DNA of 64,000 nucleotides from Longimicrobiales bacterium. Lineage in GTDB: Bacteria; Gemmatimonadota; Gemmatimonadetes; Longimicrobiales; Gaopeijiaceae. The translations under genes were made by a program, and so were the position numbers. Under the pieces are notes generated by a model. It had not been told where the DNA came from and did not search any database. It was given only the letters and a program-made list of their open reading frames with translations. Each line of letters opens with the position of its first letter. The stretch's first letter is position 1. Positions 1,361 to 25,161 of this stretch are shown one piece after another. The stretch spans positions 1 to 64,000 of the forward strand of contig JANQDZ010000024.1 of NCBI GenBank assembly GCA_028278645.1, given 5' to 3'.

Positions 1361-1375
1361 GGAGGGGCCGGATGT

Positions 1376-1409
1376 GGAGCCGCACCCCCTTTTTGCCACA
1401 CCCTTCTAG
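1376..1409. repeat. one-ended copy of a dispersed palindromic repeat
   Basis: This stretch between two convergent genes matches the right end of the 275-bp element at 24683-24957: GGNGCCGCACCCCC, then a T run, GC, and ACACCCTTCTA. Only one end is present; no partner arm is visible upstream. On the minus strand the conserved CTAGAAGGGTGT supplies the TAG stop of the AhpD-like gene. Confidence 0.55.
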
Positions 1410-11553: not shown

Positions 11554-12585
11554 ATGATCAATCTTCGAAGTGATACGGTTTCCAAACCCACCGACGAAAT
11601 GCGACGGGCCATGGCCGAGGCGGAGGTTGGAGACGATTACTACCGAGAGGACCCGACGGTCATCGCCCTCGAGGAGAAGGCGGCCGAACTTTTTGGAAAA
11701 GAAGCGGCGATGTTCGTGTTCAGCGCCACCATGTCCAATGTGGTGTCGGTCCTTTCCCATACGAGGCGTGGGCAGTCCATTATCCTTGAAGAGCTCTCCC
11801 ACATCTACAACAACGAGGCCGGCTTCCTCTCTGCGTTCGGGGGGCTCACGCCGAGAACAGTGAAGGGTGACCGAGGACGAATGACACCCGAACAGGTCGA
11901 GGCTGCGGTCTTTCCTACGGCCGTCCTTCATCCCCAGACCAGCCTCCTCTGTCTCGAGAACACACATAACCACGCGGGGGGCACCTGCCTCTCCCTGGAA
12001 CAGACCAAGGCCCTGACCGATACAGCCCGAAAGCACGGATTAAAAGTCCATCTGGACGGAGCCAGGATCTTCAACTCCTCGGTGGCCCAAGGGGTCCCGG
12101 TCAGCGAGCTCACCGGTGAGGCGGACAGTGTCACCGTTTGCCTCACCAAAGGATTAGGCAGTCCGGTCGGGGCCATCTGTCTCGGGTCGGAGGACTTCGT
12201 GGAAGAGGCGCGCAGGTGGAGGCAGGCTGCAGGTGGAGGCATGAGGCAGGCGGGAGTCGTTGCTGCGGCTGGGATCGTGGCCCTGGATAACATGGTGGAG
12301 CGCCTCGCCGAAGATCATGCCAACGCCCGTTTATTGGCGACCCGTTTGGGGGAGGCGGGTTTGGAGCTGGATTGCCCGCCGGGGGAGGTGGAGACGAACA
12401 TCATCTTCGCGACCATCCCCTCCGACCTCATGGACGCCGACAGGTTTGTGGAGGAATGGGCTCGGGAGGGTGTGAGCGTGAATCCCGCGAGAGACCGCCG
12501 AATTCGACTCATCACGCACCATAACATCAGCGCCGACGACATCGAGGCCGCCGGCGCTGCCGCTAGGAGAGTTTTGGGCCGCTAG
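11554..12585 (+). CDS. ltaE: low-specificity L-threonine aldolase
   Basis: A 343-residue fold-type I PLP enzyme that cleaves L-threonine/L-allo-threonine to glycine and acetaldehyde. The start INLRSDTVSKPTDEMRRAM and VGDDYYREDPTV are family signatures. HLDGARIFNS holds the PLP-pyridine aspartate and CLTKGLGSPVGA the Schiff-base lysine K199. LENTHNHAGGT contributes active-site histidine. Full length relative to E. coli LtaE (about 333 residues). AGGAC lies about 8 bases before the ATG. The TAG stop is the first part of a repeated hairpin (12583-12632). Confidence 0.93.
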   Translation: MINLRSDTVSKPTDEMRRAMAEAEVGDDYYREDPTVIALEEKAAELFGKEAAMFVFSATMSNVVSVLSHTRRGQSIILEELSHIYNNEAGFLSAFGGLTPRTVKGDRGRMTPEQVEAAVFPTAVLHPQTSLLCLENTHNHAGGTCLSLEQTKALTDTARKHGLKVHLDGARIFNSSVAQGVPVSELTGEADSVTVCLTKGLGSPVGAICLGSEDFVEEARRWRQAAGGGMRQAGVVAAAGIVALDNMVERLAEDHANARLLATRLGEAGLELDCPPGEVETNIIFATIPSDLMDADRFVEEWAREGVSVNPARDRRIRLITHHNISADDIEAAGAAARRVLGR

Positions 12586-12632
12586 AAGGGTGTTGCGGTA
12601 CCGTGGCTCGCCCCCTTATGGCAGCACCCTTC
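12583..12632. repeat. short hairpin copy of the dispersed palindromic repeat
   Basis: GAAGGGTGTTGC at 12585-12596 pairs with GCAGCACCCTTC at 12621-12632 (11 of 12 positions, the other a G.T), enclosing 24 bases that include CTCGCCCCCTTA, a match to the right end of the 24.7-kb element. It starts at the TAG stop of threonine aldolase. It may serve as a terminator between two convergent genes, although no T run follows. Confidence 0.6.
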
Positions 12633-24589: not shown

Positions 24590-24682
24590 TCTTGAGTCTC
24601 CCTATGCTTTATTTTTTGACGCTCTCTGGAGGCCGAATTGTGAGCCTGTTCTGTTGGCGTCGTTTTGCTTCCGTCGGCTAAG

Positions 24683-24957
24683 GAAGGGTGTTGCGAAAAG
24701 GGGGCGAGCCCCGTTACCAACGCCACGGGGCCATATGCAAGGCGGGGCTTCGCTGGCATAGCCATGCGCTACGTCGAGAAGTCCCAACGAAGTAGATGGC
24801 CCCGTGCCGTCGTAACCCCAAGGGCATAGGGAGGTTACGGCGCTATACTGCGTCAGAACTCCTCCCCGATACTTCAGCATCGCATTCGTCGTCCTTCCTT
24901 GTCTAGCATCCGCAAGCTCCCTATGCGGGGCCGCACCCCCTTTTCGCAACACCCTTC
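24683..24957. repeat. 275-bp element with 22-bp terminal inverted repeats and nested hairpins
   Basis: The ends 24683-24704 and 24936-24957 are perfect inverted repeats of 22 bases, beginning GAAGGGTGTTGCGAAAAG. Inside are further inverted repeats: CACGGGGCCAT/ATGGCCCCGTG (24724-24734 / 24796-24806), CGTAACC/GGTTACG (24811-24817 / 24833-24839) and GCATAGGGAG/CTCCCTATGC (24824-24833 / 24917-24926). No convincing gene is inside. End sequences recur at 1376-1409 and 12583-12632. It looks like a MITE- or REPIN-like non-autonomous repeat, or a structured RNA; no clear target-site duplication. Confidence 0.7.
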
Positions 24958-25161
24958 TAAACTGGTCGAACGTGGGCTAGAGTCTACCCGCCCGGACTTC
25001 CCTTGGCAATGCGCTGAAACCCACCTCCGAAAGGGACATCCTGGGACCAGAAATGTCCCAAAATGTCAACCTTCCGGCTCTTTGATGCCCTTGCGGGGTA
25101 CCGGCGACTCTGCACCCTACGTGGACTCAGCAAAAAGCGGACCCGACCGCGAGGAGGAAGG
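24958..25161. other. intergenic leader of the peroxidase gene
   Basis: About 200 bases between the repeat element and the peroxidase start. TGGGACCAGAAATGTCCCAA at 25032-25051 contains a GGGAC/GTCCC inverted repeat. No gene or clear promoter recognised. Confidence 0.3.

Follow-up and report, generated by a model that had tools for sequence, protein, structure and literature searches.

Miniature inverted-repeat transposable elements (MITEs) are usually regarded as decayed leftovers of insertion sequences (IS). Those associated with IS5 and IS1182 are short and gene-free, possess IS-like terminal inverted repeats (TIRs) and a target of TA or YTAR type, and occur in many intergenic copies. All these traits are shared by a 275-bp element located in a stretch of 64,000 nucleotides (hereafter the window) from a Longimicrobiales bacterium of the phylum Gemmatimonadota (contig JANQDZ010000024.1, positions 1 to 64,000). 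Unlike such MITEs, this element has an interior that does not come from IS with matching ends, its hairpin module being absent from all five such IS examined, and one interior is joined to several unrelated TIR types.

To our knowledge, the Correia, RUP, BOX and ERIC repeats are known from narrow host groups. We found no sequence relatedness between them and our element, whose module occurs in at least three phyla. Like it, Correia (Neisseria), RUP and BOX (pneumococcus) and ERIC are small, stably folded repeats with TIRs, often located at gene ends, and action at the RNA level has been reported for Correia and ERIC (PMC10969869). Bacterial interspersed mosaic elements (BIMEs) and repetitive extragenic palindromes (REPs), the latter 20-40 bp long (PMC3733652), also consist of hairpin units paired in inversion at gene ends, whereas our element has TIRs and a TA target and its units of ~104 nt contain conserved internal loops. 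The bridge RNA of IS110 and the HEARO/omega RNAs are likewise conserved, folded, non-coding parts of mobile elements with covarying stems; our module, in contrast, is without a linked protein gene or Rfam match and is at most a candidate RNA.

Here we argue that the element is very probably a non-autonomous, MITE-like transposon moved in trans by DDE transposases of the IS5/IS1182 superfamily at YTAR/TA sites, and that, as payload, it carries two inverted copies of a conserved hairpin module whose fold and loop letters persist while stems and TIRs change. Its mobility class is ordinary (MITE-like, with IS5/IS1182 ends). The conserved folded core found across phyla is unusual and, as a variant, novel; no description of the module or of Gemmatimonadota MITEs was found in the open-access literature.

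Results

The interior of the element is an inverted dimer of one hairpin module (Table 1). A covariance model of arm 1, termed R1 and built from 22 arms, also detects arm 2 within these elements, but exclusively on the opposite strand, with up to 61.6 bits (E 3.5e-12), and no arm-2 match in the arm-1 orientation is among the R1 matches listed. Pairwise alignment of the two arms does not rise above shuffles, therefore a covariance model was needed to establish their homology. In the pair columns of R1, 95.9% of cells are paired, compared with 83.4% in shuffles. Double-sided changes affect 25 of the 38 pairs versus 11.3 in shuffles, none of 500 shuffles being as high, and this signal is lost when pairing partners are slid out of register. 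Stems have been wholly replaced between lineages (those of Bacteroidota copies are A+T-rich), and the letters AGGC and AACG of the internal loops show little or no variation over the 22 arms and across phyla. The module thus has the covarying helices characteristic of a conserved structured RNA. Both modules face inward; from whichever side a strand enters, it encounters one of them in sense orientation.

Table 1. Coordinates of the element, its parts and related features in the window.
Feature	Position	Strand	Evidence and remarks
Whole element, 275 bp, gene-free non-autonomous TIR element	24683..24957	.	TIRs, copy search, empty site
Left TIR, GAAGGGTGTTGCGAAAAGGGGG	24683..24704	+	22 bp; 15-mer core at 22 exact genomic places
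Arm 1, hairpin module reading inward (rightward)	24713..24816	+	Covariance model R1, 111.9 bits
Linker between arms	24817..24825	.	67-bp extra hairpin here in copies of ~342-387 bp elsewhere in the genome
Arm 2, second diverged module copy, inverted, reading inward (leftward)	24826..24924	-	34.6 bits, E 7e-6
Right TIR, perfect complement of left TIR	24936..24957	-	22 bp
Right target TA	24958..24959	.	Left TA at 24679-24680, 2 bp from TIR; empty allele CGTCGTTAAACC
TIR-only derivative of the element family, 48 bp, CTA at left flank	12585..12632	.	Genome search, TIR comparison
Decayed TIR-only derivative of the element family, right end intact, TAG at both flanks	1361..1406	.	Genome search, TIR comparison

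An earlier, sequence-only reading of the window had described perfect 22-bp TIRs, three further inverted repeats between them and a unit folding on itself, and had proposed either a non-autonomous mobile repeat or a structured RNA element. The TIRs are indeed present, and their arms can be extended to 30 nt at 90% identity. Two inner repeats (24720-24734/24796-24810 and 24824-24840/24910-24926) lie inside; in the repeat listed after them, 24816-24827 pairs with 25085-25096, beyond the element end. Predicted folding, which includes additional short stems within both arms, reaches -143.3 kcal/mol on the + strand (z -8.8) and -166.1 kcal/mol on the - strand (z -10.1), and none of 200 dinucleotide shuffles was equally low on either strand. 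As that reading had it, there is no convincing gene in the element, since the differences among copies consist of hairpin inserts and indels whose lengths are not multiples of three. Covariation, loop invariance and presence in other phyla give partial support to a structured element, which may act as RNA or as folded DNA.

Searching the genome of origin, we obtained 54 matches to the element and ~23 arm-1 modules with arm 2 opposite. Copies measure 275-387 bp and are accompanied by fragments; five further near-full copies of ~275 bp share 89-96% identity with the window element, and the longer ones carry other modular hairpin inserts besides the hairpin between the arms. Terminal arms of the other copies span 20-34 bp. 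Several copies lie at contig ends, as is typical of repeats in draft assemblies, and related copies are also found in genomes of relatives. Loops of the element carry inserted small hairpins, among them CGGGCACCGCYGCGGAGCRGTGGTCG and GAGCCGAGCTTGCGAGACGACCGAGCGAAGCGAGGTC, in different copies (L010, L015, L016 and L024) and in other genera (L043 and L049); these look as if they were mobile themselves. Mini-hairpins of ~45-60 bp that consist of TIRs only, namely the two in the window together with L092, L096, L100 and L102, are apparently internal-deletion derivatives. One of them, L096, is formed by two TIRs in a near-perfect hairpin.

Empty sites were sought by searching concatenated copy flanks in genomes of the same genus. 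Five loci, including that of the window, are empty in genome G001, the alignment running across the junction. At locus L003, the empty allele GTTAACG, identical in a second genome (G002), corresponds to GCTA/AAAGGG...CCCTTT/TAACG in the filled one (slashes mark element ends), so that TA has been duplicated. At the window site, empty CGTCGTTAAACC corresponds to filled CGTCGGCTAAG/GAAGGG...CCCTTC/TAAACT. Most copies are flanked by TA or YTAR, and CTAG, TTAA and CTAA recur at the ends. Short, gene-free and TIR-flanked, with many dispersed copies and with empty sites showing target duplication, the element has the properties of a MITE. The suspected mobile repeat is therefore confirmed by ~23 copies, by copies in relatives, by five empty loci and by TIRs in common with IS5/IS1182-type IS of relatives; other copies and conserved folding were both found.

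These data also bear on a REP- or BIME-like origin, in which the repeat would be moved by a Y1 transposase (REP-associated tyrosine transposase, RAYT) recognizing hairpins of single-stranded DNA. Paired inverted hairpins, high copy number, location at gene ends and a constrained folded single strand would all suit it. It is nevertheless extremely improbable, because TA duplication and IS5/IS1182-type TIRs are foreign to REP transposition and the element spans 275-387 bp as against the 20-40 bp of REPs (PMC3733652).

By a simple codon-usage estimate, 11 of the 23 copies lie no more than ~6 bp from a predicted gene 3' end. The element starts with A or G, so that its entry at the TA of a stop codon re-creates TAA or TAG, and gene-end sites may be tolerated for this reason. 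The window copy itself is not a gene-end case.

Next, we compared G-U with A-C counts, taking base pairs from predictions on both strands. Counts made on the model-fitted alignment are biased toward the model and were disregarded. On the module (+) strand of arm 1, G-U to A-C is 52:8 (20 columns versus 1). Arm 2 has a weak wobble bias on its own module (-) strand, 34:22, and the TIR stem has one on the - strand, 15:2. Because the arms and the TIR stem disagree in these counts, a single functional strand or transcript for the whole element was rejected. Selection acting on every module as a folded strand would account for the pattern, though strand-biased mutation could also have produced it. 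For arm 1 only, the asymmetry supports a module that would act as RNA.

Might the module then be a cis-acting RNA for flanking genes, working as a 3'-end hairpin, in RNA processing or in attenuation, with the TIRs as incidental transport? Such a role would agree with the copies close to gene ends, with the acceptance of G-U but seldom A-C on the module strand of arm 1 and with the reported activity of Correia and ERIC at the RNA level (PMC10969869). The window copy, however, lies between divergent genes, away from a gene end, and gene-end placement has a simpler cause in TA occurring at stop codons of a G+C-rich genome. We regard this explanation as possible but rather doubtful.

The transposon reading draws further support from the element ends. 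In relatives, the homologous core sits between varied TIRs (GCAGGTCGCTGAAAAAGG, GAAGGCTGTTGAAGAAGT, GAAGGGTGATCGGAAA, GAAGCCTGATCGG, GCAGCCCGTGGTAG, AGAGGGTGTTTACATACTACGAATGGG and others), and GAAGCCTGATCGG forms a second TIR type around the same core both in the genome of origin (L027, L101, L102) and in the same genus (L046 of G002). Within one genome, G031, the 1.4-kb IS L161 has ends TCTAGCAGGTCGCTGAAAAA identical to those of module element L032; likewise in G022, ends AGCCCGTGG are common to IS L154 and module element L049. The ends AAGGCTGTTGAA of IS L184 (G017) are shared with elements of G008, G023 and G029, while those of IS L153 and L158 match module-element TIRs less closely. Proteins of all five IS match NCBIfam IS1182/IS5 models and DUF772, and all but that of L184 contain DDE_Tnp_1, so that relatives provide IS5/IS1182-type IS with matching TIR, CTAG/TA target and transposase. 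Genome G031 also harbors, alongside dimer L032, single-module elements (L346 and L349, 163-169 bp) with a further TIR, AGTGGTTCGTCCCGGAAGTCTCTTG. When IS-length pairs of TIR TAGAAGGCTGTTGAAGAAGT were sought, mostly pairs of 260-350 bp were obtained. IS630 (Tc1/mariner) was rejected as mobilizer, as the genome has no DDE_3 (PF13358) gene and the partners in relatives are of IS5/IS1182 type.

In 10 of 16 genome copies the outer 22 bases are equal at both ends, as with AAAGGGTGTTGGGGGATGGGGG at both ends of L007, despite TIR differences between copies; 1-base register shifts account for part of these differences. Matched ends could result from transposase selection on both ends or from hairpin-templated correction. 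The latter is what a plain MITE would predict, that is, an internally deleted IS with a neutral interior whose folding simply follows from palindromy and from template switching that maintains arm complementarity. The occurrence of TIR-only derivatives and the failure of G-U counts to favor any single strand agree with it as well. Template switching, however, cannot preserve unpaired loops, and AGGC and AACG persist in 22 arms and across phyla while stems are replaced wholesale; moreover, the IS with matching TIRs are devoid of the module. A plain MITE is thus already disfavored, and we consider it quite improbable.

By R1 search of the phylum, the module was detected in 50 of 395 genomes and 28 of 138 genera. 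All inspected matches in the complete genome G006 fell within three such elements, and the organism names of module pattern matches were nearly all those of Gemmatimonadota metagenome-assembled genomes (MAGs). A single-module form of 162 bp, with A+T-rich stems and bounded by TIR ATACCAAATATATG, is present in two Bacteroidota MAGs (assigned by title and base composition), with 8 copies in one and 4 in the other. Complete plasmids of Alpha- and Betaproteobacteria with the module come from Martelella mediterranea, Diaphorobacter, Mitsuaria and Cupriavidus basilensis, the last one being a conjugative IncP plasmid. R1 scores are 57.8 bits for Martelella, 51.1 for Bacteroidota, 50.4 for Mitsuaria, 46.0 for Cupriavidus and 42.9 for Diaphorobacter. 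Across hosts, the module is arranged as monomer or inverted dimer. A match labeled as Clostridia (L301) is apparently the end of a Gemmatimonadota contig that was misplaced.

Martelella mediterranea has four R1 matches, in inverted dimers. Its plasmid pMM593 carries such dimers (L363, L366-L368) with two kinds of TIR, and L366 has an additional hairpin between the arms. BLAST links the Martelella copy to L381 on Ensifer canadensis plasmid pT173e, which R1 does not match. The outermost 70-86 bp of L381 are present, without the core, in many plasmids of Sinorhizobium and Ensifer. The module pattern was not found in viral contigs. A consensus module query gave no match among plasmids and phages, whereas natural copies used as queries did match plasmids. 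Among Rfam covariance models, none reached its gathering score, with one chance match at E 1.4.

The window element lies in an intergenic region between sat (ATP sulfurylase, - strand) and a divergent di-haem cytochrome c peroxidase-like gene (+ strand). A decamer of the element, CTCCCTATGC (at 24917), had been noticed to recur in the sat leader; it is there, at 24598-24607, one base off the 24597-24606 first given. With one mismatch, it also occurs at the equivalent sat-leader position of a same-genus genome without the element, and was therefore rejected as an element part. The recurrence is a coincidence.

Discussion

How the element spreads can be outlined as follows. The transposase of a resident IS would bind both TIRs, excise or copy the element and insert it at YTAR, duplicating TA; the TA target is seen at the best site, and the role of the transposase is suggested by TIR identity. 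A first base of A or G restores the stop codon, so gene-end sites would be tolerated. As covariation and loop invariance suggest, selection would then maintain each inward-facing module in its folded form, either as RNA or as single-stranded DNA. Finally, fresh TIRs matching another IS may be gained at both ends jointly. The best reading of the varied ends is that the module would move with those of whichever IS5/IS1182-type transposase is available.

Several observations weigh against this reading. A clean TA duplication is seen at one site alone (L003), the left TA of the window copy is 2 bp off, and flanks at L002 and L008 are decayed. The transposase gene of L184 is shortened and without DDE_Tnp_1. 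No IS1182, IS5_4 or IS630 gene was found in the genome of origin, and no IS bearing GAAGGGTGTTGCGAAAAG was identified there as partner of the window copy. Among 121 genomes of the family examined, none of the other 120 contains the window's TIR. Finally, antisense strands of arm 1, used as a control, reach 42.7 bits with R1, and matches near 30-43 bits partly reflect hairpin geometry. As the control tops out at this value, the best cross-phylum matches (46-58 bits) are beyond hairpin geometry alone; weaker ones are to be judged together with shared loop letters. The genome is a draft, and a repeated IS may be missing from its assembly. Since no IS with the TIR of the window copy was found in its own or family genomes, we infer its transposase by analogy with the IS/element pairs of relatives.

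A bolder and rather unlikely possibility is that the module is itself a lineage under selection: a folded unit of RNA or single-stranded DNA, shared across phyla, that would have a part in its propagation, perhaps through the recruitment or guidance of DDE transposases, and would swap TIRs between transposases and hosts.

Genomes in which an IS and an element share TIRs offer ready donor-transposase pairs, and the invariant internal loops are a concrete target for mutational testing. Gemmatimonadota, Bacteroidota and Pseudomonadota have all retained one folded core, with its stems and ends replaced, which suggests that this core aids the spread or persistence of these elements.
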